A stretch of DNA of 64,000 nt, taken from Methylocystis sp. Its GTDB lineage: Bacteria; Pseudomonadota; Alphaproteobacteria; Rhizobiales; Beijerinckiaceae. The notes beneath the pieces were generated by a model. That model saw only the letters and a list, made by a program, of their open reading frames with translations. It was not told the DNA's origin and did no database searches. Location: contig NZ_JAKFWS010000083.1 of NCBI RefSeq assembly GCF_021731785.1, positions 1-64,000 on the forward strand. The letters run 5' to 3'. The translations under genes were made by a program, and so were the position numbers. Positions within the stretch are counted from its first letter, which is position 1; each line of letters starts with the position of its first letter. Of the stretch, positions 2,389 through 62,772 are shown piece by piece.

Positions 2389-3945
<1,557 letters not shown>

Positions 3946-46179: not shown

Positions 46180-46254
46180 GCGGGTGTAGCTCAGGGGTAG
46201 AGCACAACCTTGCCAAGGTTGGGGTCGAGGGTTCGAATCCCTTCGCCCGCTCCA
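46180..46254 (+). tRNA. tRNA-Gly(GCC), attachment gene of the element
   Basis: GCGGGTG...ACCTTGCCAAGGT...GGTTCGAATCC...CGCCCGCTCCA. Confidence 0.95.
46206..46254 (+). repeat. attL (49-bp direct repeat within tRNA-Gly)
   Basis: AACCTTGCCAAGGTTGGGGTCGAGGGTTCGAATCCCTTCGCCCGCTCCA. Confidence 0.93.
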
Positions 46255-46319
46255 AAAATCAGCAAAAAAATCAAAGAATTAAAGCTCGCCCTTAGGGGCG
46301 TTTTCTTTTTGGTGCGCAG

Positions 46320-46340
46320 CGGGGAAGCATGGGGGAAGCA
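46320..46340 (+). repeat. 21-bp repeat, candidate integrase arm-type site (left)
   Basis: CGGGGAAGCATGGGGGAAGCA identical to 62587-62607. Confidence 0.65.
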
Positions 46341-46373
46341 AACGCGCCCTGCTCTACCGCCGCCCTACACACG

Positions 46374-46401
46374 AAAAAGCCCGGCCATTTCTGACCGGGC
46401 T
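46374..46401 (-). terminator. Rho-independent terminator on minus strand, downstream of csp gene
   Basis: AGCCCGG...CCGGGCT with A-tract at 46374-46377 (T-tract on minus strand). Confidence 0.65.
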
Positions 46402-46512
46402 GCTAAGTGAGGGCGGCGTCGACCCATAGGGCCGACGGCCTGCGGCTCAATTAGGCGTCCATGCCCCGAATACAAGCCGATCGCTCATGAAAAATCCCGG
46501 TCGTCGCCGGCC

Positions 46513-46725
46513 CTAATCCGCAATTTTCAAGTTGTCTGCTGACGATTTGCCGCTGCGCCGATCGACGACGATTTCGTAATTTAGCTTCTGACCTTCATTG
46601 AGGGCATGCATCCCTGCGCGCTCGACTGCGCTGATATGAACGAATACGTCCGGTTCGCCTGATTCCGGCTGAATAAAGCCGAAGCCTTTTTGGGCGTTAA
46701 ACCACTTCACGGTTCCGGTTGGCAT
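46513..46725 (-). CDS. Cold-shock protein (CspA family)
   Basis: [38 protein letters not shown]. Confidence 0.95.
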
Positions 46726-47025
46726 GACATGTCCTTTCAAGAACAAGCTATCGGGTCCCCGCGGGTTTGCGAGAGCGCGAAAATCGAAGTTCTGGATAGG
46801 AAGTCAGATGCCGACGCGGCCAAATTCGCGAAAGCAAGATCGTTCGGCCGAATTTCGATAGAGTCCATATAGCGCCAAACCTGGGTGAAGCCAAAAGCGT
46901 CGCAACTTGAGAAGCGAGAGGCCGTCTGGACGAATTGCCGGGCAACATCTGTGACTGTTGCTTGAGACTGTCGGGCATCAAGAGAAGCAAAAACGCCAAC
47001 ATCCGCGGTCGGGGCCGCGCCCAGC

Positions 47026-47262
47026 CTATCTCTTCCTCAGCCGCACGCCCGGCCCGCCGCCGTTCTCTTCGATGAACTCGACACCGGCCGCTTCGAGCGC
47101 CGATCGGATGGCGGCTATCGTCCGTGCTTGAGCGGCAAGCGGTCCAGGCTTCGTTTCGAGTCGCTGGATTGATGGGAGTGAAACCGTAGACGCCTCGGCC
47201 AATTCCCGTTGTTCCCAGCGCAGCAGCGCCCGCGCCGCTCTTACCTGTTCGCTCGTCATCAT
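47026..47262 (-). CDS. XRE-family HTH regulator
   Basis: QVRAARALLRWEQRELAEASTVSLPSIQRLE...AIRSALEAAGVEFIEENGGGPGVRL. Confidence 0.88.
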   Translation of the reverse strand: MMTSEQVRAARALLRWEQRELAEASTVSLPSIQRLETKPGPLAAQARTIAAIRSALEAAGVEFIEENGGGPGVRLRKR

Positions 47263-47267
47263 TAATG

Positions 47268-47330
47268 GTTCACCAATTGTTTAATAGCTCAGACATTGAC
47301 AACAGACTGACCATCATTTAATTGGTGAAC
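47268..47330. promoter_or_regulatory. Paired operator half-repeats between the XRE gene and the rightward operon
   Basis: GTTCACCAATT (47268-47278) and inverted copy AATTGGTGAAC (47320-47330). Confidence 0.6.
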
Positions 47331-47412
47331 TATCCCAAGCCGCTCGCGAGAGCAACGCCGAAACCACCCGTTTCGGCGAACGCCCTCGGCTTATCCAAAG
47401 GAGGAAGATTGC

Positions 47413-47799
47413 ATGAAAACCCAAACCACCCGCCGCGCCGTGATGGCCGGCCTCGCCGCTGCGCCCGTCGCCGGGCTTCCCGCCATTGCTGGCGCCGCGC
47501 CTATTTCAGAAGCGCTCGCAGGGGCAATCGAGCGCCACAAGGCGGCCCATCTTGCTTACAGGTCGAAACCGTCGCCCGACTACAAGACGGTCGATGCGCT
47601 CTACTTCGCATTGGTGGCGGCTTGGGATGAACTGTCGCTGGCGCCTTGCGCATCCGACGCCGAGCTGCTTGTGAAGCTGAAATATCTCTTCCGGTTCGAG
47701 TGTGACTTTCTCGGCTGTCGGCCGGAACTGAGCGACGAATTCGGGAATGTCCTGCGCGCGCTGGACCTGCATCTGAACGGGGCGGAGTCGCTGTCATGA
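47413..47799 (+). CDS. Hypothetical protein with Tat-like N-terminus
   Basis: MKTQTTRRAVMAGLAAAPVAGLPAIAGA; stop overlaps next ATG (ATGA). Confidence 0.65.
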   Translation: MKTQTTRRAVMAGLAAAPVAGLPAIAGAAPISEALAGAIERHKAAHLAYRSKPSPDYKTVDALYFALVAAWDELSLAPCASDAELLVKLKYLFRFECDFLGCRPELSDEFGNVLRALDLHLNGAESLS

Positions 47800-48319
47800 G
47801 CACAGCCAATGACAACGCCGCCGCCCCTCTCTTCATCGAACTGCGCCCCGGCATGCGCAAGGCGCTCGCCGACGCCGTGGATGCATTCTTGAACCTGTTG
47901 GACCAGATCGACGCCGACGCCGATCTTGAGGACGCCGACGCGCCGGAAGACGACGCGCCCTGCGAAGATGTGGGCGACGACGAGCCGAGTCTGGGAGCGC
48001 CCGGAGCATCCAGCTTTCCCCCTCAAACGCTATGGGCGCTCGGCGCCGCCGACGACGACCGGGAAGTAGAGGACGAACACGACGAACCAGCGGCGACGAC
48101 GAGCCGGCGCTCGGCGCGACGATGGCCGTCAATCAGCAGCACGCCTGGCGGGCGAATGCGGACGCCTGGGGCTCATGTGACGAAGCTGAGCCTTCGCTCG
48201 GCTGGACAGGCCACGGCCACGGCCATCCCGAGATGGCGCTGCGCGGCTACGACAACGATCGCGAGCACGATGACGAGCGCGAGGAAGATCACGACTTCGA
48301 GGAGGATTACGGCCGATGA
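47796..48319 (+). pseudogene. Acidic DDRE/DEPSLG-repeat protein, apparently frameshifted near 48100
   Basis: Acidic repeat motif runs in one frame to about 48100 then in another to 48319; both outer boundaries use ATGA overlaps with neighbours. Confidence 0.55.
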
Positions 48320-48525
48320 CCGACGCGACCAACGGTAAAATTCTGGAGGAGAACCTCAGAGAGGCGGAGTATCTTTCGCGCGCGCTGTGGATGCTGATGG
48401 TTGGACTGACTGGAAACTACCCGCATCAGGTCGGAGAAAGAGATCTATCGGCGATTTACCAGCTTGCGGAAGAAGTCCGAGAGCGAACCGAAGCAGCGAA
48501 CCATCAATGGCATGAGGAGGAGTAG
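48316..48525 (+). CDS. Hypothetical protein
   Basis: ATGA overlap with the upstream frame; in operon with 47413-48319. Confidence 0.6.
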   Translation: MTDATNGKILEENLREAEYLSRALWMLMVGLTGNYPHQVGERDLSAIYQLAEEVRERTEAANHQWHEEE

Positions 48526-48530
48526 CAGTC

Positions 48531-48677
48531 ATGACTGACCTCTCCCAGGCCACCATTCCGCAATTGTGGATCCGCATACAGCGCATTCGCTTGGCACGAT
48601 GGGCCATGCGTGCTTGCCGGGCCTTCGCCGACCTTGCCGAATGGCTCATGCCCGAGGATTTGCGCACGCGGCTCTGA
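48531..48677 (+). CDS. Hypothetical small protein (48 aa)
   Basis: MTDLSQATIPQLWIRIQRIRLARWAMRACRAFADLAEWLMPEDLRTRL, preceded by GAGGAGGAG. Confidence 0.55.
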   Translation: MTDLSQATIPQLWIRIQRIRLARWAMRACRAFADLAEWLMPEDLRTRL

Positions 48678-48812
48678 GCCCTACATCTTGCCAAGCGCCG
48701 GCTTCGATCTCCTCTTTGCCGGCGCAGAGACGCCCCGACCGTGGATGTAACGGCGGGGCGTTTTGCGTTGCGAATCAGCCACTATGCCGGCCCCCACGTC
48801 GAGGCGGTGACG

Positions 48813-49058
48813 ATGACAAACGGTGCTGAAATAGCGTTAGCCGAGCATTCCGAAAATTCAATCACAGTGGAAATAGAGCGTCCAATTGAGCCACAAATCG
48901 GTATTCCGTTCGTTGCGCTACGCGAGGGGCAATGCAAATTCCCACTGGGACACAATAATGATCCGCCGACGCGGTTTTACGGCGACTCCACGCCGATCGG
49001 CTCTCCCTATTGCTTCGCACATAGACAGCTCGCTTATCGGCCAGTCCCGCGCCGATAA
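48813..49058 (+). CDS. GcrA C-terminal (sigma-interacting) domain-like protein without HTH domain
   Basis: QCKFPLGHNNDPPTRFYGDSTPIGSPYCFAHRQLAYRP resembles the GcrA motif CKWPIGDP..FTFCG...GPYCTEHARVAYQP; ORF may start at GTG 48741. Confidence 0.7.
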   Translation: MTNGAEIALAEHSENSITVEIERPIEPQIGIPFVALREGQCKFPLGHNNDPPTRFYGDSTPIGSPYCFAHRQLAYRPVPRR

Positions 49059-49319
49059 GTCTAGCGCGGCTGGTTCGCGCTTGCTCCCGACGCGCCGCGC
49101 GCCTTCGGATCAGCCTGTCGCCCGCCAATAGGCGACGATCCTTTCTACCGCAAAACTCCAGCCCGGCAGGCGACGACCGGGCTATTTCATGCGCCGCAAG
49201 CGCACAGCGGCAAAATTTGCTCAGCCCTGAACCTTGATCAACAATTTATCGGCCCAGTGTCTAAGAGCGCGGTCCCGTGGGCGCGACGGCTGTGCGCTCC
49301 AAAGGGAAAGCGTGCGCCT

Positions 49320-49906
49320 TCAGGCGTCGCGGAGCGTGGTCTTGCTCGGTCCTCGCTTGCCGAAGGCGTAAGCATACCAACTCGCGCCCAAAGCTATCAC
49401 GACGAGGGTGGCGACGGCGATGGCAGTCCAAGCGCGTTGAAACTCCTCGCCGACCGAGAAGACGAAACGAGCGTTGTATTCCTTGCGGCCGTCCTCGCTC
49501 CGCGCCCGCACCAAAGCGACATAGTCTCCTTTTTCCCTAAAGTCATGTTCGAGCTGGATAACTCCAGTCTGGAAGCGCGCTGGCGGAAGATAGGCCTCGG
49601 CTAGCGCAGCGCTTTCCTGCTCCGTCGAATCCATCTCCTTAACGATGCGCATCTCCACCATCATGTCCCTCAATTCGTCCTGCATGGTGTCGACGACGAT
49701 GATCGTCGGACCCGTTTCGGGAACGTCCTCGCAGAACTGGCTTCTCGACTTTGTCGGCTGATAGAAGCTGAAGGTTATGACGTTCGGGCCCATCTGGGCC
49801 GTGCATTGCTGAACTTTCTGGATAGCCTTGGCGGAATCCCTGCGCACTGCCTGCGCGTCCGCGCGCCCGATCAAGCCGATCGCCGCGACGAAAATGAATA
49901 GGAGTC
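49320..49906 (-). CDS. Hypothetical secreted protein with C-terminal TM anchor
   Basis: MRLLFIFVAAIGLIGRADAQ signal peptide; WTAIAVATLVVIALGASWYAYAF TM near C-terminus; start taken within ORF 49320..50198. Confidence 0.6.
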
Positions 49907-50267
49907 TCATCATGAGCATGTCTCCGCACGCGTGCAGCACATTGGCGAATTCGCCACTCCCGACCTTGAGCAGATCGTGCCGCCGTGGGGGCAGGAACGG
50001 ATGATACGCGCCAAAAAAAGACCGCGACCGTGAAGCCGGCAAGGGACTTACAGGAGCTGCTCTGCTGCACGCCGAGCGACGCCGGTCAGTTAGTCCTGAA
50101 GCGAGCCGAGGCAAGCGTGGCAGGCGAAGCGTCGCAAGGACGCCTATGAGGCGCTGCACCCGGAGACGAAGCACGGCAATCCCTCCGTAAGTCGCCAAGT
50201 TGGCGACACACGGGAGCGGAGTGAGACCGACCGCTTCACCGCCGACACTGCCGCAAAGACCGGACAG

Positions 50268-50747
50268 TCAGAGCGGGCCGCATTGCGCGTCGGTGCGCTT
50301 GGCGCTGCCCGCGACTCGGCGAGCGTGTGCCTGCTGTGAATAAAACTGATTTGCGAAGCGCAGGAAGCGCCGCCTTTTTTCGTTGTCAGCAAAAACGAAG
50401 TCGACACGTTCGGTCGAGGTCAAATAAAGCCGAACCATGCGATTATCGATTGCATCGATCCGAGAGAGGCTCCTTCCCGGGATTTTTCTGCGCCACAGAA
50501 CGGGAAAACCGACATGCGGAAAGATGCGACGTGGGATGGAAAAACCATTTTCGTCGGCCCACAGCCCCAACGCTTCCGCCAGAAAGCCTTGCAGTACCAA
50601 GAGAGCCATGAGCCCGAGCGACAGGCGCATTTCCGGCGCCAGATTGAATTCTTCACAATTAGTTTTGTCGCAATAAATTAAGCCCAGAACAAAGGCTGCG
50701 CCGAACACGAACCACGAGACGCAACTTCTCCAAGACCGAATGACCAT
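50268..50747 (-). CDS. Hypothetical membrane protein with two TM segments and PH-like tail
   Basis: Two N-terminal hydrophobic segments and IDAIDNRMVRLYLTSTERVDFVFADNEKRRRFLRFANQF. Confidence 0.55.
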   Translation of the reverse strand: MVIRSWRSCVSWFVFGAAFVLGLIYCDKTNCEEFNLAPEMRLSLGLMALLVLQGFLAEALGLWADENGFSIPRRIFPHVGFPVLWRRKIPGRSLSRIDAIDNRMVRLYLTSTERVDFVFADNEKRRRFLRFANQFYSQQAHARRVAGSAKRTDAQCGPL

Positions 50748-50931
50748 CGCAGCTCCCCCAAGCTGTAGCTGAACTTATTCCAATGAACCTAAAATTGCCT
50801 TAAGTTTGAGCATCTGGCAACAGCCTGTGGCAGTAACTTTGTATAATCATGTGATTTTTTGGATGGCTTCACGGCCGCCATGGAGGCCGCTGGCGTCGAG
50901 TTCACGAATGGCGACGAGCCGGGCGGTGAAG

Positions 50932-50964
50932 TTGAAAAAAGGCCCGCGGCTGTGAGCCGCGGGC
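50932..50964 (-). terminator. Rho-independent terminator on minus strand at end of the long leftward operon
   Basis: Perfect stem GCCCGCGGCT-GTG-AGCCGCGGGC flanked by AAAAAA (U-tract on minus strand). Confidence 0.75.
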
Positions 50965-51304
50965 GAGGTCGCTGACAAGTGCCGCTCTATGTGAGGCGAC
51001 GCCGGTCAACTAGGGCTGGAGCGCGCCAAGGCAAGCGTGACGGCGCGCGGCTCGCCAATTGGCGAAGCGAATAGACGCCTGGGCGGCTCGCCAATAGGAC
51101 GCGCCGAGCGTTCGCTGATGTGGTGGATTGGAGATTGGTGGGCGTTCGGGGAGACGAAATACGGCGCGCGAAAATCTATCGTCGATGCTGATGATTGGAC
51201 TGGCCCGGCATTCCAAACATGCCGCAATGCAGCAAGCGTTTGCCGTAGTTTTGAAACGTCCCGCCGGCGGGACGCTCTCTCATTTAGTCATCATGCTGAG
51301 GTTG

Positions 51305-51553
51305 CTAAGCGCTCCCCACCTGTGCCGCCTCGACTTCGGCGATGCGCTTTTCGAGCCTCTGCGCCAGCGCGTCGGCGACTGCGTTGAGGTCCTTGCCGGC
51401 AAATTCCTCTTCGCCTGAAAGCCCGTCGATCAGTTCTTGACGAAACCATGCAACAGCCGCGGCGAGCAACGCCGTCGTATCGATCACGCGCCGAATTGAC
51501 GCTTCGACGCCATCGAGGCCGAGCAAATCGGCGACGGGATCACTTTCCGCCAT
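51305..51553 (-). CDS. Small hypothetical phage protein
   Basis: 82-aa ORF directly downstream of tape measure, same strand. Confidence 0.6.
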   Translation of the reverse strand: MAESDPVADLLGLDGVEASIRRVIDTTALLAAAVAWFRQELIDGLSGEEEFAGKDLNAVADALAQRLEKRIAEVEAAQVGSA

Positions 51554-51554
51554 G

Positions 51555-53642
51555 TCAACGCCTATTGTTCCGGTCGGCGAGGATCGATGGAAGGTCGCGA
51601 TTATTGGCCGCGAGGCGCTTCTCGATATGCAGCATAATCTGACCGTCGCTCATGACGCGCGGCGTCACTTCAACGGGAGCATTGTTGTGGATCGTGATGC
51701 GCGGCGCGCCGCCGCCGCTCATCGCCACCGGAATTGAGCGGCCATCGGGAAGCGGGACGAAAGCTTCCGGAGTGCGCCCTTCGCCGAACATGGCGAGCTG
51801 TGGCGAGTCCGCGATACCGCCTCCGGCATAGCGGCGCAGAGGCAACGGGCCTGCGCTCGTCATGATCCCGCCATCGGCGAAGTGGAACGGCTTCCCGGAA
51901 AAAAGCGCTCCGCCGCTGAAATAGCCCGCGCCTTTAGACGCGCCTCCGAAGAAGCCACCGAGCGCGCTGGCGCCGCCCGTAATGAGACCGCCAAGCAAGC
52001 CGCTCGTCCCGCCCTTGCCAGTTGAGCCGAACAGCGCATCGGTCAGGCTGCGCGACGCGATATCGATGGTTTTGCTCTTAATCTGATCGAGGACCGATGC
52101 GAAGGCATGTCCCGCAGTCTCGCCCCGGCGCAGATCATTGGCAAACGACGAAAATGCGCTCCGCGCCACATCGCTGGTTTCTTTTAGACGCTCGGCGATA
52201 CTGTCGATCTGCGTCAACTCGTCGTCACCGGGCTTTTTTTTCGCCGCGCGTGAAACCCGGCGCCGGGACGCGGCTTTGGCCGCCTCGGCGCGCTGTTCGA
52301 AACGCGCCCTCGATGCGCCAGCCGCTTCCGGCTGGGCGATCCCCGACTCGCTTAACGGAATGAGCCGGCCCTTGAAGGGCGTCTCGCCGGTCACAAGCTC
52401 GCGCACCGTATCGAACGGATGCAGAAAGCCGCGCATGACGGCTTGCAGATTTTGCGACTCGGACACCGCCTGCGCAATCGAGCCGACGATTTCATACCAG
52501 CCGAGCTTTAGCGACGCGACCGGGTCGCCCAAATCCTGAAACGCCTTCAAGAGCTTGTCGCTGGCGATCTGCGCCGCCATGTCGATTTGCAATTGCGTTT
52601 CATGCGCGGCGCGTGCCGCCTGGTCGAGATGGTCGCCAGTGCGGCCAGTCGCCTCCGCGAGCCCGCGCATGGACGCCGCGCCGCTTTCGATGGCGTCGAA
52701 CAGCCGCCGGCCGGCGTCTTCGCCAAACAACGATTGCGCCAGATTAATCCCCTCGGCGCGCGGCAAATCCTGAATCTTGCGCTCAACGATATCGATGAAT
52801 TCGCCGGCGGTCCTGGCCCGGTCGGCGACCTTGAGGAAGCCAGCGTCGATCTTCTCCAACGCGCTTTTGACCGCACCTTCATTGCGCGCGAACTGCTCGA
52901 ATTGCTGCGAGGCGTTGGCGAAGGCGCCGACCGCGCTCTTTTCGTCGAGGCCAGCGCCTGCGCCGACTATCTTCGCGCCCTGAATTTGCTCGGCGGACAG
53001 ACCGGATAATTTTGCCGTTTCGCCGATCTTGGCGAGAGCGCTTTCCGCTTTCAGCGCAGCGACTTCGATACCCGCGACGGCGGCCGTGAGTTGGACGGCA
53101 ATTCCGATCGGCGAAGTGAGAGCGCGCACCGCGCCAGCACCGAATGAGCGCAGCGCGCCGGCTGCGCCGGCCCCGCTTGACCCAAAAATATCGGCGATTT
53201 GGCTGCCTTGCTGGAATAGGACCGTCAACGGCGACTGGCCGCCGGCGAGCGATACGCCAACGTCCTGAAATTGGCGGGAGAGATTGATCCATTCGTGCCG
53301 CGCCAAGCCCGCCGCCCGAGCGTTGTCATTGACCGCGCCGGTTAGGCGCCGGTGGCGGTCGGTCGCAAGATCAAGCACCCGCTGCGCGTCCTGTTGGGTG
53401 CGCACGCCAGTTGCGACAGCGGCGTTGGCCTTGACATAGGTCGACGCCACTTGCGCTGCAGAACGCGCCTGGCCGTCGAGGCTCTTTTCCAGCCGATCGA
53501 AGTCGCGCGCGGCGTTCTTGGCCTCGCGGGAGAGGCCCTGCATCGCAGCGTCGCCAGTCTCGCCGATCTTTTTCAGCGCGGCGATGATCTTGTCGTCGCC
53601 TTCCGCGCCGAGGCGCAGTGTGACGCTAGCTTTCGCGGCCAT
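51555..53642 (-). CDS. Phage tail length tape-measure protein
   Basis: 695 aa; ASVTLRLGAEGDDKIIAALKKIGETGDAAMQGL, LSRQFQDVGVSLAGGQSPLTVLFQQGSQIADIFG, Gly-rich C-terminus. Confidence 0.88.
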   Translation of the reverse strand: MAAKASVTLRLGAEGDDKIIAALKKIGETGDAAMQGLSREAKNAARDFDRLEKSLDGQARSAAQVASTYVKANAAVATGVRTQQDAQRVLDLATDRHRRLTGAVNDNARAAGLARHEWINLSRQFQDVGVSLAGGQSPLTVLFQQGSQIADIFGSSGAGAAGALRSFGAGAVRALTSPIGIAVQLTAAVAGIEVAALKAESALAKIGETAKLSGLSAEQIQGAKIVGAGAGLDEKSAVGAFANASQQFEQFARNEGAVKSALEKIDAGFLKVADRARTAGEFIDIVERKIQDLPRAEGINLAQSLFGEDAGRRLFDAIESGAASMRGLAEATGRTGDHLDQAARAAHETQLQIDMAAQIASDKLLKAFQDLGDPVASLKLGWYEIVGSIAQAVSESQNLQAVMRGFLHPFDTVRELVTGETPFKGRLIPLSESGIAQPEAAGASRARFEQRAEAAKAASRRRVSRAAKKKPGDDELTQIDSIAERLKETSDVARSAFSSFANDLRRGETAGHAFASVLDQIKSKTIDIASRSLTDALFGSTGKGGTSGLLGGLITGGASALGGFFGGASKGAGYFSGGALFSGKPFHFADGGIMTSAGPLPLRRYAGGGIADSPQLAMFGEGRTPEAFVPLPDGRSIPVAMSGGGAPRITIHNNAPVEVTPRVMSDGQIMLHIEKRLAANNRDLPSILADRNNRR

Positions 53643-53781
53643 TGGTCAGTCCTTCCCGTTCAATACGGTGATGCAAACGACAAATTGTCGTTTGCAGACA
53701 GTCGGCGATGCGCCCACGTCGCTGGCGAACGGCAGCGCGAAGCCGCCGCCCGCCTTGTCGTAGGAGACGCGTCAACGGTAA

Positions 53782-54174
53782 TCACGCGGCCGACGAAGCA
53801 TCCGGTCGACGCAGGATGCGCAGCGTGCCGGAAGCCTCGAACCTCTTGAATGCGAGATACGTTTCCTTTGAGCGAAACTCAGAACGTATCGCCGCAGAGC
53901 GATCATACTCAGCCGCCCAATCATCTTCCGTAGACGCGGCTCGCTCAGACACAACTGGCGGCGCCACGCGTTCCTTGCCCTCGGCGACGCGCCTGCAATG
54001 GCGAGCGCGCTCATAACTTTCGCTGAACGCCCACTGTGCTTCAGACGGCCAGCGGTCGAAGCCTTGCGGATGGCCCTCGCCGAGCAGTCCGGCGCGCGCG
54101 CCGGCTCTCTTTGCTTGCTCTTCAGAGCCGGCAAGCCGCTCGGCGGCGGTGATTGCGTTTTCATCGATCGTCAT
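53782..54174 (-). CDS. Hypothetical phage protein upstream of tape measure
   Basis: MTIDENAITAAERLAGSEEQAKRAGARAGLLGEGHPQGFDRWPSEAQWAFSESYERARHC; start at 54174. Confidence 0.55.
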   Translation of the reverse strand: MTIDENAITAAERLAGSEEQAKRAGARAGLLGEGHPQGFDRWPSEAQWAFSESYERARHCRRVAEGKERVAPPVVSERAASTEDDWAAEYDRSAAIRSEFRSKETYLAFKRFEASGTLRILRRPDASSAA

Positions 54175-54274
54175 TTCGATTGCCTCCAGTGTTGGAAATA
54201 GGCGCGCGACCCGCTCGCCAAAGTAGGTCGCGCGCCGTCCCTCGGCGGCAAGGTTAACACCGCCGACGGAATCG

Positions 54275-55066
54275 TCATTCCGCCGCCTGCAACAGTTCGG
54301 CGTCTCCTGTGCGCAGCGCCGCCGCTTTCTCGCGAAGCGGTCCGACGATGAGCAGATCGGCGGCGATTGGCGCAGTAAAAACTTTTGGTTCGCCTTGCCC
54401 GCCGAAGGGCGCGAGTCGTCCACCGTCCCAGCTGTAAAGGCTCATGGCCTTCTCAAAATGGGTGTGCTGCTGCTGGAGCGTGTTCGCACGAACTGCTCTA
54501 AGCAGTTCGAACAATCGCGGCTCGTTGTTGTAAATGCCGCTCGCCACGATGGCGCGCGCCACGTCTTCCGGCCTCGCCGGCTGCGGCATAAGGTGACCGT
54601 CGGAATATTTTTCTGTGAAGGTTTCCGCCGGGATCACTTTGACAAGCTCGTCGAAGGCCGCCGCGAGCGCGTTCATCGGCCCTTCCAACGCTTTCGCCTT
54701 TTCCTCAATCGCGGCGGCAGCGCGCTCATGTTCAGTGGCCAGGCGTTCGCGCTCTGATTTGTTGCGCGCGCGTTCAAGCCGGTCTTGCAGTTGAAGTTCG
54801 GCGATCTCGAGCCGCTCGAGGCGAATTTGAGCGAGGTTTGCGGCGGCGTCGAGTTGCGCAATTTCGGCGTCGCTCGCATCGGACAACAGCATCGCGGCGC
54901 GCTTCGGCGCATGCTCTTCGACGACCGCCTCAACGTCCTTGCGCTCGGCGCGCAGCTTCACCAAGGACGCCTGCATTTCCTCGATCTGGCTTGCCACCGT
55001 CTTCTTCGTGGTTTTCAGAAAATCAAGAACTGACATCAGCCCCTCGTTGCTCTGCGAATTGCTCAT
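54275..55066 (-). CDS. Hypothetical coiled-coil phage protein
   Basis: Long helical region EEMQASLVKLRAERKDVEAVVEEHAPKRAAMLL...RLERLEIAELQLQDRLERARN. Confidence 0.6.
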   Translation of the reverse strand: MSNSQSNEGLMSVLDFLKTTKKTVASQIEEMQASLVKLRAERKDVEAVVEEHAPKRAAMLLSDASDAEIAQLDAAANLAQIRLERLEIAELQLQDRLERARNKSERERLATEHERAAAAIEEKAKALEGPMNALAAAFDELVKVIPAETFTEKYSDGHLMPQPARPEDVARAIVASGIYNNEPRLFELLRAVRANTLQQQHTHFEKAMSLYSWDGGRLAPFGGQGEPKVFTAPIAADLLIVGPLREKAAALRTGDAELLQAAE

Positions 55067-55454
55067 CGTGAGATTCGCATTGCGGCGTGTGCAATGTCAT
55101 ACGCTCGCGATTGCACACCGCTCCAATGTTGTGGATTTGTCTCCAGCCGAGCGGCTTGCCCTGGCGCGAGCGAAGAATGCGGTGCAATGCGCGACGTTGC
55201 GGCGCCTTGCTGTCGGGCAATTCGTCAAGGCAGCATTCGCGCAGCCAGCCATTTGCGGCATATGCCTGAAGGTGCGCTGCGAGCATTGTCGCGCGCGCAC
55301 GATCAGAGCCGGAATAAAGGCCGAGCGCCTCGACAATCGCGTCCTCGCGCTCTTGCGCTTGGAGGCGGCGCGCCTCAGCCAATGCGGCTTCGTAACGCGC
55401 GCGAAACTCGGCGGCTTTTGCGAAAAGAGCGTCGGCGGTATCGGCCGGCGTCAT
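55023..55454 (-). CDS. Hypothetical protein
   Basis: ORF overlapping neighbours in operon orientation. Confidence 0.5.
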   Translation of the reverse strand: MTPADTADALFAKAAEFRARYEAALAEARRLQAQEREDAIVEALGLYSGSDRARATMLAAHLQAYAANGWLRECCLDELPDSKAPQRRALHRILRSRQGKPLGWRQIHNIGAVCNRERMTLHTPQCESHDEQFAEQRGADVSS

Positions 55455-55460
55455 TGCGGA

Positions 55461-56144
55461 TTATTTCGAGATGCTGTTGGCTTTGCGGGCGCCGCCCTTC
55501 TTATCGCGCGCCGCCTCAGCCTCTTCGCTCCCTTCGATGCCTTCACATTCCCGAGCCAACGCCGACTTGCGCTTTTTCGCGTAGGCGTCCCATTTTTTTG
55601 GCTCATACCGCTCGCCAGCGTCTTCGGCCACGCGTTTCCAGTCGACGCGCATACCCTTCTCGCGCGGCCAAATGGGGGGATCGTCGTCGCCCTCAAACGG
55701 CCCGACGCCGTTCCGGCGCATGAGGTCGCCCGCAATTTCAACGAACATCGTGGGCATGATCTGTTCGACCGTCCTCGCCGCCTCGATGGTGGCCCCAGCG
55801 TCACGGGCAGCCATTGCGGCAATCGCGCCGATATCGCGAACAAAACTCAGGGTCGCGAAGAGCACGCCCCGGTCGAATGGATTCTCACAATCACGAGCCG
55901 GTCGCAGCCAGCCCGGGCACTCCGGCTGCGCCGTCTCGCCCTTGAGCAAGCGAGCCGCGCGCACGGTTCCCTTGTCGGTTTCACGGTCGGACGGAATGAT
56001 AGCCCCAGAAATCCATTTGAGCGCTCGTTCGCGGTCAAGTTTTCCATCTGAACGCGTCGGCATGCCTTTGGTGCAGTATTGGTTGACCCTGACACGGGAA
56101 ATTCCGAGTTCGCGCGCCAATTCAGCTTTCGAGATTGTCGCCAT
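55461..56144 (-). CDS. HTH protein resembling phage terminase small subunit (Nu1-like)
   Basis: ISKAELARELGISRVRVNQYCTKGMPTRSDGKLDRERALKWI. Confidence 0.6.
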   Translation of the reverse strand: MATISKAELARELGISRVRVNQYCTKGMPTRSDGKLDRERALKWISGAIIPSDRETDKGTVRAARLLKGETAQPECPGWLRPARDCENPFDRGVLFATLSFVRDIGAIAAMAARDAGATIEAARTVEQIMPTMFVEIAGDLMRRNGVGPFEGDDDPPIWPREKGMRVDWKRVAEDAGERYEPKKWDAYAKKRKSALARECEGIEGSEEAEAARDKKGGARKANSISK

Positions 56145-56149
56145 CTATT

Positions 56150-56659
56150 TCACACTCCTGTTAAGTGAATTTTGGGGTTTACACCTAGTTTTCCCCCGAG
56201 GCCCCGCTTTACCCGTATTAGTTGCATCGCCGGGAGGACCCGCGGGGTATGGCTCGCCCTCTCTGCTTCGATCGATGCAACGAGGCGGGCGACGCGCGCG
56301 CCGGGCCAAAGGGCGCTGCATAGGCGCGCCGTCTGCAGCTCGTCTTCGCAGAGATGGACAACGAGCGTCGGCTTTTGCCGGGACAACTCCGCGATGAAAT
56401 CTCGTCGCAAGTCGTCGATTGGGTAGCCGGGGCCAGCGCGCCCCCAGGACGTGCGGCCGAACGCAAGAGCAATGCGACGTATGTCGTCTATGTATTCATA
56501 TACGAAGGCCACCGCCTCATCGTGAGCGACGCCGTCGAGGACCGCCATCTCTCCGAGCAGGTGCTCACGAAAACCGTTGATATGTGACGCGCGTTCCGCC
56601 TCATCCATAACAGCGAACGAAAAGGCCACCGCAACTCGCGAGGGAGCAAACTCAATCAT
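56150..56659 (-). CDS. Hypothetical protein
   Basis: MIEFAPSRVAVAFSFAVMDEAERASHINGFREHLLGEMAVLDG; upstream repeat region excluded. Confidence 0.5.
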   Translation of the reverse strand: MIEFAPSRVAVAFSFAVMDEAERASHINGFREHLLGEMAVLDGVAHDEAVAFVYEYIDDIRRIALAFGRTSWGRAGPGYPIDDLRRDFIAELSRQKPTLVVHLCEDELQTARLCSALWPGARVARLVASIEAERASHTPRVLPAMQLIRVKRGLGGKLGVNPKIHLTGV

Positions 56660-56680
56660 TCCTCTACCCCTGATGAAGCC

Positions 56681-56800
56681 GGACATGCGGGACATGCGGG
56701 ACATTTCGGGACATTGTCCCGGCTTGTCCTGTCCCGCAAAATAGCTGCAAAGCGGGACGGGACGGGACACAACCCTTTAGGGGTGTCCCGGCGTGTCCCG
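56681..56800. repeat. GGGAC/GTCCC iteron-like cluster, candidate replication origin
   Basis: About ten GGGAC or GTCCC cores in 120 bp, including the perfect palindrome GGGACATTGTCCC at 56708-56720. Confidence 0.65.
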
Positions 56801-56822
56801 TTTGCGGATGCGCCCGAATGAT

Positions 56823-58052
56823 TTAGGGAACCCATAGAACACGCTCCCCATTTTTAGACGCGGCGAAGAGTCTCTTGGCGGCGAGAGCCGCTGCGATCGA
56901 TCTGTTGAAGGATTTGCGCTGGCGCTCGGCAAGTTTTTCTTCGTCTTCGTCCGGCCCTGCCTGTTCAGCAATTCCGGCGTAGTAGCGCTCGCGGACAACG
57001 CCATCGGCGACGGCCTTGACGAACGGCCCGTCTGCGAAGGGACGGAACATCTCGCCGGCTTCGTCGATTGACGCCGCGATGGTGTCCATCAGGAGCCGCT
57101 GTGACGCCGGGACAGTCTTAATCTTGGTGACGCTCTCGGCCTTGGGCGCGTCGGTCCATGCGACGACGGCGGAGCGGACGGGCTGGCCTTCCGGGTCGTC
57201 GCCGATATAGACGTCCGTGAGCTTGAAGCCGTAGGTCTCGCCGCACTCCATATCGCGCTGCTTCGTTACCTTCAGCGCGCCGATTGTCACCTCGATTTCG
57301 GTATCTGTAGCGGCGCGTAACAACGAATGGCCGCGAGCCCCACGCGCCGCATCCTTGCCGGTGTGGTGGACATAGGTAAAATGGGTGCCGGTCTCAGCCC
57401 GGATACGATCAGCGGCGAGGACGATACGCCCCATGTCGACGGGCGAATTTTCATCGCCGCCAGCGAGAGCGCGCGAGAGCGTGTCGACAACAACCCAAAC
57501 GCATTTCTCGCCGGTCTCGGCTTCTGCGTCGCGAACAAGCGCAAGCAACTCTTTCAGGTTCGCGTCATTGCTGCGCAGATCGATAGGAAACCGCACAAGC
57601 GCAAACAGCGGCGTCGGGGCGTCTTCCCCGTGCTCGGCCTCGTATCGCTTTTTCAATGCGGCGAGGCGGCGCATGATGCGCTTGCCGCCTTCGGCTGCGA
57701 CATAGACGACTAGGCCGCGTTTTGTCGCCTTGCCATTCCAAGGCTCTCCGGTTGCGACGGCCATCGCCATATCGAGAGTAACGAATGTTTTGCCGCTGTT
57801 GCTCTCGCCGTAGATGACCGATAGCGCGCCTTCGTCGAGCGTGTCGGCGATAAGAGGATTGCTTGGCTCAGACAGCGCCACGGCGCATGCGTGGATAAAC
57901 CATTCGAGACGCATCTTGCGAGACGGCCGCGCCGGTTCTTCGACATGAATGCGCTCGTCGTGCGTTGACTGTTCGCGCTCCGCGCCGTTGGCGGAGTCGC
58001 CAGGGGTGAAGCGGGCGACGATGCGCCCGCCCTTGTGTGGCTCTGGCGTCAT
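56823..58052 (-). CDS. AAA-family ATPase / RepA-like replicative helicase
   Basis: LSVIYGESNSGKTFVTLDMAMAVATGEPWNGKATKRGLVVYVAAEG; CVWVVVDTLSRALAGGDENSPVDM. Confidence 0.88.
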   Translation of the reverse strand: MTPEPHKGGRIVARFTPGDSANGAEREQSTHDERIHVEEPARPSRKMRLEWFIHACAVALSEPSNPLIADTLDEGALSVIYGESNSGKTFVTLDMAMAVATGEPWNGKATKRGLVVYVAAEGGKRIMRRLAALKKRYEAEHGEDAPTPLFALVRFPIDLRSNDANLKELLALVRDAEAETGEKCVWVVVDTLSRALAGGDENSPVDMGRIVLAADRIRAETGTHFTYVHHTGKDAARGARGHSLLRAATDTEIEVTIGALKVTKQRDMECGETYGFKLTDVYIGDDPEGQPVRSAVVAWTDAPKAESVTKIKTVPASQRLLMDTIAASIDEAGEMFRPFADGPFVKAVADGVVRERYYAGIAEQAGPDEDEEKLAERQRKSFNRSIAAALAAKRLFAASKNGERVLWVP

Positions 58053-59014
58053 TGTCGTTTGTCCCGCAATAAGTCGTTGGCGTCTTTGAAGCCGTCAGGC
58101 GGCGTCCAAATCGCGACGTCATGCCCCGCGGCAGCCCAGCGCGGCCCGGCGTCTCGCCAGGCGGATTGCGACGCGCCTGCGTCATTCTCGCCGCTTATGG
58201 TGATGTGCCCCCAATGGAAGGGCGGCTCGAAAGTTCGGAACCGGCCCGCGCCGGCAAGCGCGACGCAGCCCTGAAATCCAAGCTTGCGCATGGCGAGCGC
58301 CGTCTCGACGCCTTCCGCGATCGTCGCCGTCGCTGAGTAGAAACTTTCCCAAATGCTGCTAACAAAGACGACGCTGTTGGCCATCGGGCCGAGTGTTTTG
58401 CGCTCAACCTTCTTTCCGTCGGCCGTAAGTCGGATGCGCTGCACGGCCAGGACGTGATGCGGGTCTTGCAGGAAGCATTGCTCCAGCGCGCCCATATCGT
58501 CCAAGTGGCTGCAAATCTTCATTACGAGATGGGGATCGCGCAGCGCGCAAATCAGCGCTGGCGCTTTCTCACGCCCGAAATGGCAAGCATGATGAAAGCG
58601 AATTGTGAGCGCGAGCGTATCGTCTATGACACCAGGCAAACCGCGCTCTCTGGCGAGATATTGCTCGGCGAGCGTCCCACGCGGGTCGCGCGATTCAAAG
58701 AATAAGTCACGCGCTCGCCGGCTATTGTCTTTGCTGGGCGCTTCGCGGATTTCTCGTTTTACAGAAGGCGTAATGCGGCGACGTTCTCGCGTTATGCCGA
58801 GCCGCGCGCGCACATGCTCTTTACATTCTCGCCAGTCGTCTCCTGAGAAGGAGTGGACGACGAGCCCGTCATCAGATTGGCGCGAGAGCGAGACGGCGAG
58901 GCTTCGATCATTGCGGCTATGTCCCGGTCCCGGCGCGAGAACGCGCCCGCCCGACACTTCGCCCCCAAGGGCGTGCGCGATCTGGCGGAGGTTCACGGCG
59001 CGCCACCTTTCCAC
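58049..59014 (-). CDS. Toprim-domain primase-like protein
   Basis: HALGGEVSGGRVLAPGPGHSRNDRSLAVSL; ATIAEGVETALAMRKLGFQGCVALAGAGRF. Confidence 0.85.
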   Translation of the reverse strand: MERWRAVNLRQIAHALGGEVSGGRVLAPGPGHSRNDRSLAVSLSRQSDDGLVVHSFSGDDWRECKEHVRARLGITRERRRITPSVKREIREAPSKDNSRRARDLFFESRDPRGTLAEQYLARERGLPGVIDDTLALTIRFHHACHFGREKAPALICALRDPHLVMKICSHLDDMGALEQCFLQDPHHVLAVQRIRLTADGKKVERKTLGPMANSVVFVSSIWESFYSATATIAEGVETALAMRKLGFQGCVALAGAGRFRTFEPPFHWGHITISGENDAGASQSAWRDAGPRWAAAGHDVAIWTPPDGFKDANDLLRDKRQ

Positions 59015-59472
59015 GTTTCCGCGCCGTAGCGCGCAAGTAAGGCAGCCTCCGCCCTACCGTGATCCTTCTTTCGTTCGAACAAATCGGAGCGGGCCGGCCA
59101 TAGACGCAGCGCCAATGCGCGGCTCGTTTCTTTGTCTGAATTCAGCGCGAAATGTTTCTTCCACTTCGGCGGCGTGACGAGAATCGACGGAATGCTCAGC
59201 GCGCCGACAACGCCAAGCAGCGCGCCATATGCAGCGCCGAATTTGAACGTCGACGCGACGCCTTGCTTTGGCATTGCCGCAACGCGTTCAATAACCGCGA
59301 GGCCGGGTTGCATTTGCCTGATTCGAGAGGCGAGCGTTGCAACGTCGATCGCGCCGTCGACGGTCGGCATATCTTCCGCGGCGACAAGGTGAGGAGCGTC
59401 GACGAAATAAAAAGCGACCGCGCCGGAGAGGCCGGGATCAACGCCAAGAATGCACGAGGGAGTTGCTGTCAT
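58993..59472 (-). CDS. RuvC-like resolvase / RNase H-fold nuclease
   Basis: CILGVDPGLSGAVAFYFVD, LAVIERVAAMPKQGVASTFKFGAAYGALLGVVGAL. Confidence 0.85.
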   Translation of the reverse strand: MTATPSCILGVDPGLSGAVAFYFVDAPHLVAAEDMPTVDGAIDVATLASRIRQMQPGLAVIERVAAMPKQGVASTFKFGAAYGALLGVVGALSIPSILVTPPKWKKHFALNSDKETSRALALRLWPARSDLFERKKDHGRAEAALLARYGAETWKGGAP

Positions 59473-59483
59473 TATGCTCCCCT

Positions 59484-59894
59484 TCAGAACGGAATTTGGT
59501 CGTCGAGATCGGCGTCGACACGCGGACGGTCGTCGCGCATTCGATCGGGCGCGGCCCAGCTTTCGCGGGGCTTCTCGGCCTTTGGCTTGCGCTCGCGCGG
59601 CGCCGGTTTCAGCGGAAGAACGCTTTCCGCGAACAGCGTGAAGCCGACGCGCGTTTCGCCATCCTTGTCGTATGGCTCCGCCTTGAAGACGCCCTGCGCC
59701 GACACGGCGTCGCCGTCGCCAAGACGCATCAGCTCCGCGCCGGTGCTCTCGCTGAATATGAGCAGCTTCCACCATTGCGTGACGTCGCCGTCCTTCACGC
59801 GAATGGTCGCGCTCCAAAACGGTTTGCCAGCCTTCGAGATCCGCTGCTCGGGCGCGCGAAAGAGTGTTCCGGTAATGAGGGCGTGCACGGTCAC
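59484..59894 (-). CDS. Single-stranded DNA-binding protein (OB fold)
   Basis: ALITGTLFRAPEQRISKAGKPFWSATIRVKDGDVTQWWKLLIFSES; acidic C-tail DDQIPF. Confidence 0.85.
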   Translation of the reverse strand: MTVHALITGTLFRAPEQRISKAGKPFWSATIRVKDGDVTQWWKLLIFSESTGAELMRLGDGDAVSAQGVFKAEPYDKDGETRVGFTLFAESVLPLKPAPRERKPKAEKPRESWAAPDRMRDDRPRVDADLDDQIPF

Positions 59895-60021
59895 GGCTGC
59901 GCCTCCTCGAATGCGATGGCGGCGAGCACAGCGCCCAAAATCCCGGCGGGACGGCCCGCGCCGTCTCGCGTCAGTGAGGCGATGGTTTTGCCCGTGCGGC
60001 GGTTGGGGAGCGTCTCGCGTT

Positions 60022-60231
60022 TCATCGCGCTGGCCTCCGCTCGAAGGCCAGATCGGCGAGAACGCGCGCCATTGCTGGCGGGAGCCGGAAGCGTCGCGCG
60101 ATCCAAGCGGCGCGCAACTGTTGAAATTCGATGGGCTGTGGGATAATCTCGAAACTGTCGACGCCCGCCAGGCTATGACAATTCCGAGTCCCGCCGATTC
60201 CCGTCGGCGGGCTCTCTCGTTTTGAGGCCAT
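60022..60231 (-). CDS. Hypothetical small protein
   Basis: ORF in operon orientation with tightly spaced neighbours. Confidence 0.4.
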   Translation of the reverse strand: MASKRESPPTGIGGTRNCHSLAGVDSFEIIPQPIEFQQLRAAWIARRFRLPPAMARVLADLAFERRPAR

Positions 60232-60237
60232 GGCGCG

Positions 60238-60465
60238 TCACGCTGCCCGCACGTCGGAAGTGGACTTCTGCGGCTCGCCGATCTTGCTCAGCGCCCACTC
60301 GTCAAGTTTGGCGGGCTCATAAAGCGCCGCGCCGAATCCCTTCCGGAACTCAGGGCCTCCACCTACGGAGGCCATCTTGGCGAGAGTCTTCTCGCTGCCG
60401 AAGCCGTATTTGTTCTTGAGATATTCGCCGGCGGCCTTGCGGCGAAGAAACGGCGCGGTGAGCAT
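60238..60465 (-). CDS. Small DNA-binding protein (AlpA/excisionase-like)
   Basis: LRRKAAGEYLKNKYGFGSEKTLAKMASVGGGPEFRKGFGAALYEPAKLDEWAL. Confidence 0.6.
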   Translation of the reverse strand: MLTAPFLRRKAAGEYLKNKYGFGSEKTLAKMASVGGGPEFRKGFGAALYEPAKLDEWALSKIGEPQKSTSDVRAA

Positions 60466-60559
60466 GTGCTATTCCCGATCAACCGGCCCCGTCAGGCGGG
60501 GAATAGCCATGCAAGTTACTCATATTTTCGCGCTTGTGACGTGGTGCACAGATCGAATT

Positions 60560-60961
60560 TTAATCGCGCTCTCGCGCACCACGTCGCCGAGATGATGCGC
60601 GCTTTCGCGGTTGCAAAGGATTTCCCTTAATCGAGATGGTGCCCGTGGCCACGTCGAAACTGTAATGTTTCTTAGCGGCGTTCCAGGCAGATTTTACAGC
60701 TTCGGCCGTAATCTTCGGTCGTGGACTCTCTGGATCGTATTCGTTCAGGACATAAAGCGCGAAGCGAACAAAAGGCCCATCCGACTCCTCGGTCTTGGGA
60801 TTGGTGGACACCGCAGGCTTTCGTTTGAAATGCCTTTCGTAAATAGGCGCGAGCGAGAAGCCGATTTTGGAATGTGTCGCCTCCAGGTATTGCGCCAGCT
60901 TGTGCGCACTGCCCTTGACTGAAGACGCTTCATTTCTTGCCCAGTGAGCGAGCAAGCGCAA
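60560..60961 (-). CDS. Hypothetical protein
   Basis: ORF in operon orientation. Confidence 0.45.
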   Translation of the reverse strand: MRLLAHWARNEASSVKGSAHKLAQYLEATHSKIGFSLAPIYERHFKRKPAVSTNPKTEESDGPFVRFALYVLNEYDPESPRPKITAEAVKSAWNAAKKHYSFDVATGTISIKGNPLQPRKRASSRRRGARERD

Positions 60962-60966
60962 TTGAG

Positions 60967-61269
60967 TTAAGAGCTTGTCCCTATCAACGATGCAGAAATC
61001 GTCAGGAAATTTCTATAGCGCAGCGACTCCGTTTCAAACGAAGCGAGTATTCCCTCCGCATGACGCGCCAGCGCATCGAATTCCCTTTTCGTGTTTTTTT
61101 CCTGCGTCGGATAATCGCGCGCCGTAACATCGTTGCTTCGCAAGCCCTCAGCAAATCGGTCTAAATCGCGCCTCAAGTCATGCAATTTCAGGCAGTCTGG
61201 AGCGTTCCTGTGACCGACAGCCTCGACGAGTTTTCGGACTCTTTCCAGATCGTCCTCTTGCTGCGTCAT
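60967..61269 (-). CDS. Hypothetical protein
   Basis: ORF overlapping the integrase stop by ATGA-like coupling. Confidence 0.5.
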   Translation of the reverse strand: MTQQEDDLERVRKLVEAVGHRNAPDCLKLHDLRRDLDRFAEGLRSNDVTARDYPTQEKNTKREFDALARHAEGILASFETESLRYRNFLTISASLIGTSS

Positions 61270-62597
61270 CTGCCCCGCCGCTCCCTGTTTGCGCTGGGCA
61301 ACTCGACGACGTCGCCATCACTGCCCGTCATCGCTACCGAAATTCTGGCCGCGACTTTGTCCGCGGCTTCGACGAGCGCGCTATCCGGTCTGCGGATGTA
61401 ATGACGCGCGGTCACGCCGCGGCGGGCATGCCCCAGCATTTCGCCGATTGTCGCGTCGCCATAGCCTTCGTCCGCAGCCACGCTGGCGAACGTCCGGCGC
61501 AGCACTTGCGCCCGCGCATCATGCAGCCCGGCTGCGTCGAAAAGGTCCGCAAGCGCCGATTTAAGATCGGCGTGGCCGGTCCCGTCGCGATTCGGAAAAA
61601 CGAAGTCGCCATGCAGGCGCGGCAGCGCTCCCAAGAGCCCGATCGCTGCCTTGCCGATCGGGCGCATAGATTTTCCGGTCTTCGTCGACTCCAGCCGCAC
61701 GCATTGCGTTGCGACGTCTATTTCCCGCCAGCGCAAACCGCAGGCCTCATTGGCGCGCAGCCCCGTCAGTGCAATGAGCCGCAGAGCGGCGACTGGCATA
61801 GGGTTGTTGGTTTCATGCTCGCGCAGCGCGGCGCCGAGCTTGGCAAGCTCAGGAGCCGATAAGACGCGCTCGCTCGTTTGATCGGCGATCATCTCGACGC
61901 CGCGGGCCGGATTGGCTCCCTTCACAAGCCCGCGCTTGGCCGCCCATGTCCAGATGCCGCCGAATAGACCGACAGCGCGCTTCGCCGCCGGTGCGCCGCC
62001 GGTGACGCGCGCAACTCCCCGAGCCTTTGTCTTGATCGTCGTCGAGGTTTTTCCAGCGGCCACGTCGTCATAGAACCGCTGCAAGATATCCGTGCGGCCG
62101 GCCAATTCGTTCGCGACGCGCTTGCCGAGCAACGGGACGATATGGCGCGCGATGCGTCCTTCGTCGACGGCGAGCGTCGAATCGGCTTTGACACGCTTCT
62201 TATTGGTGACGACGAGCCCTGCCCTCGCCGCCTCAAGATAAAGGTCGCACACTTCAGCGATGGTCAGCGCCTCGCGCGCGACTTGGCGCGCAGACGAAGG
62301 GTCGCCGCCGTCCGCCACTTCGCCCAATAGGCGGCGCGCCTTGGTCCGCGCTTCGTCAGGCGTGAGCGTGCCGAGCTTCGCGAAGGCGTGACGCCTAGTC
62401 TGGCCCTGCGCAGTTCTGTATTGGATGATAAAGGACGCCGAGCCCGACGACTTCATGCGCAGGCCAAAGCCCTTCAGGGCGCCGTCCCAAATGAAAAGGT
62501 CGCGACCATCAGGGGATGGTTTAAGAGCGTCGATCAGGCGCTTTGTGATATTCGCCACGGCGGGAATACCAGGGTTGCGGTCGCGCCGGGGAAGCAT
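61266..62597 (-). CDS. Tyrosine-type site-specific integrase (likely GTG start at 62558)
   Basis: ITKRLIDALKPSPDGRDLFIWDGALKGFGLRM; LTGLRANEACGLRWREID; MLGHARRGVTARHYI. Confidence 0.95.
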   Translation of the reverse strand: MLPRRDRNPGIPAVANITKRLIDALKPSPDGRDLFIWDGALKGFGLRMKSSGSASFIIQYRTAQGQTRRHAFAKLGTLTPDEARTKARRLLGEVADGGDPSSARQVAREALTIAEVCDLYLEAARAGLVVTNKKRVKADSTLAVDEGRIARHIVPLLGKRVANELAGRTDILQRFYDDVAAGKTSTTIKTKARGVARVTGGAPAAKRAVGLFGGIWTWAAKRGLVKGANPARGVEMIADQTSERVLSAPELAKLGAALREHETNNPMPVAALRLIALTGLRANEACGLRWREIDVATQCVRLESTKTGKSMRPIGKAAIGLLGALPRLHGDFVFPNRDGTGHADLKSALADLFDAAGLHDARAQVLRRTFASVAADEGYGDATIGEMLGHARRGVTARHYIRRPDSALVEAADKVAARISVAMTGSDGDVVELPSANRERRGR

Positions 62598-62607
62598 GGG
62601 GGAAGCA
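62587..62607 (+). repeat. 21-bp repeat, candidate integrase arm-type site (right)
   Basis: CGGGGAAGCATGGGGGAAGCA identical to 46320-46340. Confidence 0.65.
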
Positions 62608-62723
62608 GCCGGCGGAAAGTGTGAGAAACAGAGCGTGAACGCTGGTAAAAGAGAAAAACATCAAAGTCAAGGACTTGGTAATTTCGGGGAAGCCCGGGGA
62701 AGTGGGTGGAAAGTGCGCCAAAA

Positions 62724-62772
62724 AACCTTGCCAAGGTTGGGGTCGAGGGTTCGAATCCCTTCGCCCGCTCCA
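62724..62772 (+). repeat. attR (49-bp direct repeat, tRNA-Gly 3' fragment)
   Basis: Identical to 46206-46254. Confidence 0.93.

Follow-up and report, generated by a model that had tools for sequence, protein, structure and literature searches.

It is already known that a helicase can read its own origin through a C-terminal domain and that this origin can lie right behind the gene, as with SaPI Rep and Cch2 and, in the form of a stem-loop, with pRN1. SaPI Rep and Cch2 are AAA+ type helicases, and alpha of phage P4 is a single protein with an SF3-type motor. In SaPI Rep and SCCmec Cch2, the C-terminal domain recognizes short repeats directly downstream of the protein's own gene (PMC7581432). 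P4 alpha combines a Toprim-type primase, a helicase and a winged helix that binds origin repeats; pRN1 ORF904 carries a C-terminal winged helix and has its stem-loop origin immediately 3' of the gene; and the repeats of RSF1010 are read by a separate protein, RepC (PMC4234260).

The 64-kb stretch of DNA analyzed here (the window) encodes a helicase that shares two features with self-recognizing initiator helicases. It is fused to a C-terminal DNA-binding-type domain, a predicted winged helix, and repeats lie directly downstream of its own gene.

The integrated element and its repeat array

The helicase gene is part of an integrated element of 16.5 kb that is bounded by a perfect 49-bp direct repeat, the 3' end of a tRNA-Gly. 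From the right end, the element encodes an integrase, SSB-like and RuvC-like proteins, a primase and the helicase, all on the minus strand. The array comes next, and after it a terminase-small-like gene and, more distantly, a tape-measure gene. The features are:

46206..46254, plus strand: att repeat, left end, tRNA-Gly 3' end
55461..56144, minus strand: terminase-small-subunit-like protein (phrog_57)
56679..56800, both orientations: repeat array, probable replication origin, with 12 copies of CGGGACA/TGTCCCG, of which 8 are exact and 4 have one mismatch
56679..56736, no strand: array half 2, a palindromic cluster without pivot, centered on GGGACATTGTCCC at 56708-56720
56753..56800, minus strand (helicase strand): array half 1, with words at 56800-56794 and 56790-56784, pivot CCCCTAAAGGGTT, then inverted words at 56769-56763 with overlapping one-mismatch copies at 56764-56758 and 56759-56753
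56770..56783, no strand: pivot palindrome of CCCCTAAAGGG type, between convergent words
56823..58052, minus strand: AAA_25 helicase, RSF1010-RepA-like; RecA-fold core at about residues 53-310, C-terminal winged helix at 316-409
56826..57107, minus strand: C-terminal winged-helix domain, residues 316-409, whose predicted recognition helix (371-391) includes K380
58049..59014, minus strand: Toprim/DUF7146 primase, overlapping the helicase start
58993..59817, minus strand: RuvC-like Holliday junction resolvase (phrog_1770, match over residues 122-267; true start probably further in)
59484..59894, minus strand: SSB-like protein (phrog_44, weak match)
61266..62597, minus strand: tyrosine integrase of the element
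62724..62772, plus strand: right-end att repeat, identical in its 49 bp to the left copy and 16,518 bp away from it

Despite the terminase-small-like and tape-measure genes, no capsid, portal or large terminase gene was identified in the element (46206-62772). It may be either a reduced prophage or a satellite.

A preliminary description had noted roughly ten GGGAC or GTCCC cores, including an exact palindrome, in a noncoding gap just past the helicase stop. There are exactly 10 in 111 bp (56689-56799), on the plus strand at 56689, 56698, 56708, 56754, 56759 and 56764 and on the minus strand at 56716, 56731, 56785 and 56795, and the palindrome is the 13-mer GGGACATTGTCCC. The gap is noncoding provided that translation of the downstream gene begins at the ATG at 56659-56657, immediately preceded by a ribosome-binding-like AGAGG. 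A longer, GTG-started ORF (56150-56770) would overlap the repeats.

The cluster is local, since GGGAC occurs 83 times in the whole window compared with a shuffle mean of 104, fewer than expected. In the 1.2 kb past the helicase stop, CGGGAC is the best 6-mer, with 10 copies within 160 bp. The best 6-mer of 60 dinucleotide-preserving shuffles of this region reached a mean of 3.1 copies and a maximum of 4, which excludes chance as the source of the array. A second copy of the array DNA was sought in the same genome and none was found. The array consists of several short non-random repeats of one word, as do iteron-type origins. No AT-rich unwinding region was seen on reading the array, whose spacer (56737-56752) is only about 56% A+T, and we therefore claim only that it would work like an iteron-type origin.

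Arrays behind related helicases and the residue at position 380

Related loci (labeled L###) were gathered through helicase similarity only, never through their repeats. In 133 distinct loci scanned in 250-bp bins, the first bin past the helicase stop held at least five copies of one 6-mer in 65% of cases. The two neighboring bins reached 12% and 5%, and no other bin within 3 kb exceeded 2%. A wider scan, from -150 to +400, covered 165 distinct loci and detected an array in 130 of them, for the most part within 250 bp past the stop; about a fifth of the 165 had none by the criterion used. The word varies by locus and includes CGGGACA, CGTGACA, CGTAACA, CGTCACA, CGTTACA and CGGACA, among others. 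The layout recurs, with direct and inverted copies often placed about a CCC-CTAAAG-GGG pivot. The arrays consist of two inverted clusters. In one of them only a short gap separates the words (GGGACATTGTCCC in the window); in the other, a pivot of this type lies between them. The order of the clusters in L035 is opposite to that in the window. Of the 130 related arrays, 100 have a CCY..RGG pivot, compared with 88 among 255 control stretches.

The genome of the window encodes a second helicase on contig C76 that is 71% identical by search and is part of a separate phage-like element, which also has genes for an integrase, a large terminase, a portal and head proteins. Directly at its stop lies an array of CGTGACA rather than CGGGACA words, with the pivot CACCCCCTTTAGGGGGTG. 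Viral contig L032, whose helicase is 68% identical, carries CGGGAA words and the pivot ACCCCTAAAGGGT in the same place. Conservation thus lies in the array and in how it matches the helicase, and not in the letters, which differ in the closest relatives. A lack of conserved repeats in related elements, which the preliminary description would count as a refutation, would have misled for this reason.

Several loci show further variation. Behind its CGGGAA array, L032 has a second array (3700-3820) with GGTGACACC words in both orientations about a CTATAG pivot, which may be a relic or another origin. In a subgroup whose C-terminal end differs and bears a GRYAP motif (L073, L079, L082, L084, L088, L126 and L217), TTACGGA or TGCGGAAGT words lie downstream of the helicase, nearly all in direct orientation; these helicases apparently use another recognition domain. 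L027 and L253 come from one genome (G238) and have identical C-terminal ends and a common word, CGGACA, in contrast to the two words in the genome of the window; they probably represent a duplicated prophage. The layout extends to gammaproteobacteria, as a 17-kb circular Klebsiella record (L215, CP018459.1) with integrase, capsid and head-tail genes has a TGCGGCA array directly behind an AAA_25-type helicase. On a 35-kb plasmid of Methylobacterium currus (L257), the annotated replication genes, a Toprim primase and an AAA_25 helicase, are followed by a CGCAACA array. A ParA gene is also present, and the plasmid may live on this replication system alone.

The word follows one residue of the C-terminal domain (numbered on the window helicase). 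Among near relatives with CGTNAC words, N tracks this residue, A going with M, C with T, G with Q and T with V; L116, with degenerate words, is an exception. Over the whole set, the helicases carry a motif [R/K/Q]-x-A-F in which x is K380 in the window. K or R is paired with CGGGACA, Q with CGTGACA, M with CGTAACA, V with CGTTACA and T with CGTCACA, while RTAFHK helicases have CGTTCC and QK helicases CGGACA. The two helicases of the window's own genome accord with this, K with CGGGACA and Q with CGTGACA.

Column 380 ranks first in every test among about 300 helicase columns. In pairs at least 60% identical, drawn from 45 sequences, those with the same residue at 380 share the word in 93% of 61 cases, and those with different residues in none of 176. 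The phi of this column is 0.96 in such pairs, compared with 0.43 for the next-best column and a permutation maximum of 0.39 over all columns. For distant pairs (<45% identity), column 380 is still first of 307, with a phi of 0.32 versus a maximum of 0.23 in 30 permutations.

Since sequence pairs are not independent, the helicase core, minus the winged helix, was used to build a tree of 77 sequences. On this tree the word changes at least 44 times. Of 9 independent pairs, 8-9 show the link of Q to CGTGACA and practically no pair runs against it (p about 0.008). About 8 of 9 show the link of K or R to GGGAC, GGGAA or CGGAC words, and independent pairs are too scarce for the M, T or V link to be significant by itself. 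Word switches are concerted over all copies of an array. Occasional unswitched copies are CGTCAC in the CGTGAC arrays of L151, L153 and L161 and CGTGAC in the CGGGAC array of L166.

Loci retrieved once the rule had been noted formed a held-out set, from which L253 was omitted because it repeats L027. Phage 16-3 (RQRF, CGTGACA), a Xanthobacter plasmid (RKAF, CGGGACA) and L241 (KKAF, CGGGACA) fit the rule. L220, L221 and L225 have K or R after a non-R/K residue and the word CGGACA, like QK helicases; the rule was widened from Q to further non-R/K first residues only once these loci had been seen, and only the former three are strict predictions. L209 (RKAY, CGGACA) and L219 (QKAF, CGTACA) are misses. 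The rule is incomplete, as 52 of the 130 arrays have words beyond the coded set. Residues neighboring 380 also matter, since L012, L013 and L022 (RKQW/RKVW) have CGTGACA and L086 (RQAF) has CCCTTCAA. We conclude that the helicase itself very probably binds the array, because the word covaries with residue 380, near-deterministically in close relatives and repeatedly on independent branches.

The structure model of the helicase has a pLDDT of 84.7, and the best solved match of its RecA-fold core is RSF1010 RepA. By sequence and fold, this core, presumably hexameric, places the protein with the RSF1010 RepA family. The motor is a Pfam AAA_25 domain whose nearest structures are RSF1010 RepA and other RecA-fold proteins, not an AAA+/SF3-type motor, and the helicase is therefore not classed with SaPI Rep or P4 alpha. 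Modeled alone, the winged helix (316-409) reaches a pLDDT of 92.4, with most values above 90. K380 sits in the middle of helix 371-391, which by its position would be the recognition helix. A Foldseek search of the winged helix against the PDB returned only weak matches to generic winged helices, and it is thus left without a family assignment.

The array as a candidate origin and its alternatives

The array is very likely the replication origin of the 16.5-kb element, with the adjoining helicase as its own initiator. This reading is drawn from sequence comparison. It builds on the motor domain of the presumed binder and the neighboring primase and SSB-like genes, on the arrays found behind helicases on circular plasmid records, and on the precedent of SaPI Rep and Cch2, whose repeats, read by the proteins themselves, lie just past their own genes (PMC7581432). 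The array adjoins the gene of its presumed initiator, a binder named from covariation. An iteron-type origin beside the helicase, as the preliminary description proposed, fits nearly all of the evidence, and its predicted binder is the winged helix of the helicase. A GC skew check lent it no support, as the turning points of the cumulative skew in three circular relatives did not coincide with the array.

In the mechanism we propose, the recognition helix of the C-terminal winged helix would read CGGGACA with K380 as the main specificity residue, a physical contact suggested by the observed covariation. Several helicase copies would gather on both inverted clusters and may form two opposed hexamers there. 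The duplex would then open, perhaps at the pivot CCCC-TAAA-GGG or the 16-bp spacer, and gene content suggests that the adjacent Toprim primase, the SSB-like protein and a host polymerase would extend the bubble. The joint switching of word and residue 380 across phages and other elements would mean that each element fires only its own origin.

The terminase-small-like gene nearby (phrog_57, 55461-56144) is the reason to consider that the array is a packaging site (pac/cosB) bound by this small subunit, and in L101, L112 and L124 a terminase-large-like ORF, named from its sequence and not by family search, follows the array. We consider this very unlikely. Sites of this kind coincide with genome ends and are bound by terminase, whereas the annotated cohesive end of phage 16-3 is about 3.5 kb from its array and the word tracks a helicase residue. 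Moreover, the reading frame after the array in L008 and L009 is RuvC-like rather than a terminase, as read from sequence, and the Methylobacterium currus plasmid has its array after the helicase and no annotated terminase. An operator through which the helicase or another protein controls the downstream genes or its own operon is improbable too, although the array is intergenic and winged helices are frequent in repressors. It lies behind, not before, the gene of its presumed binder, and it stays with the helicase while the downstream gene differs among loci. Autoregulation at origins is known from iteron plasmids, and such a role may coexist with origin function.

Inverted word pairs about a CCC..GGG pivot could instead form an RNA or cruciform hairpin, acting as a terminator or stability element, in which the words would seem conserved through the complementarity of the arms; the origin of pRN1 is a stem-loop (PMC4234260). 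A stem requires only that each pair of arms match, yet all copies in an array, including direct ones, have one word. This word covaries with a protein residue, and reading revealed no consistent T-run after the pivot, which leaves a hairpin highly improbable. Short high-GC words also arise easily by chance or slippage. For this array, such a source is practically inconceivable given 10 copies where shuffles yield at most 4 and a position that recurs in 130 of 165 loci, and the concentration of array bins right past the helicase stop in 133 loci refutes it.

Comparison with known replication systems

Beyond the window, we lean toward a class of replicons that is widespread among phages and mobile elements. 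Their RepA-type helicase, of RecA fold, would carry an origin-reading winged helix, with the origin directly behind the gene; a near one-residue code would have been switched dozens of times, and co-resident origins would be orthogonal. If this holds, orthogonal origins would be the phage counterpart of plasmid incompatibility groups and a source of matched origin/initiator pairs. Origin positions and initiator specificity would follow from sequence alone for many unannotated phages and satellites, including the classical Rhizobium phage 16-3. The long-standing question of how replicons change origin specificity without dying would become testable by K/Q/M/T/V swaps with matched words. Origin reading by a fused winged helix would have arisen on RecA-fold as well as AAA+ helicases.

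As far as the open literature searched shows, three things are new: self-reading by phage helicases of RecA-fold RepA type, how widely it occurs, and the code that links residue to word. No account of the array or the code for such helicases was found in open-access literature, an absence that is weak evidence. The window helicase resembles SaPI Rep and Cch2 in its C-terminal DNA-binding-type domain and in the short repeats directly downstream of its own gene, and differs in its RecA-fold motor, which is closest to RSF1010 RepA. The passages on those proteins in PMC7581432 describe neither covariation of the word with a single residue nor a CCC..GGG pivot.

The system in the window also resembles P4 alpha, as it combines a Toprim-type primase, a helicase and a winged helix predicted to bind repeats, but here the primase and the helicase are separate genes. 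Many relatives of the helicase are longer (600-900 aa) and have N-terminal extensions. RSF1010 RepA (PDB 1g8y/1nlf) is the closest solved relative of the core; its chain is 279 residues long, and the profile match is confined to the helicase core. pRN1 ORF904 is archaeal, has an SF3 motor and lacks repeat words, unlike the window helicase, and shares with it a C-terminal winged helix and a candidate origin immediately 3' of the gene.
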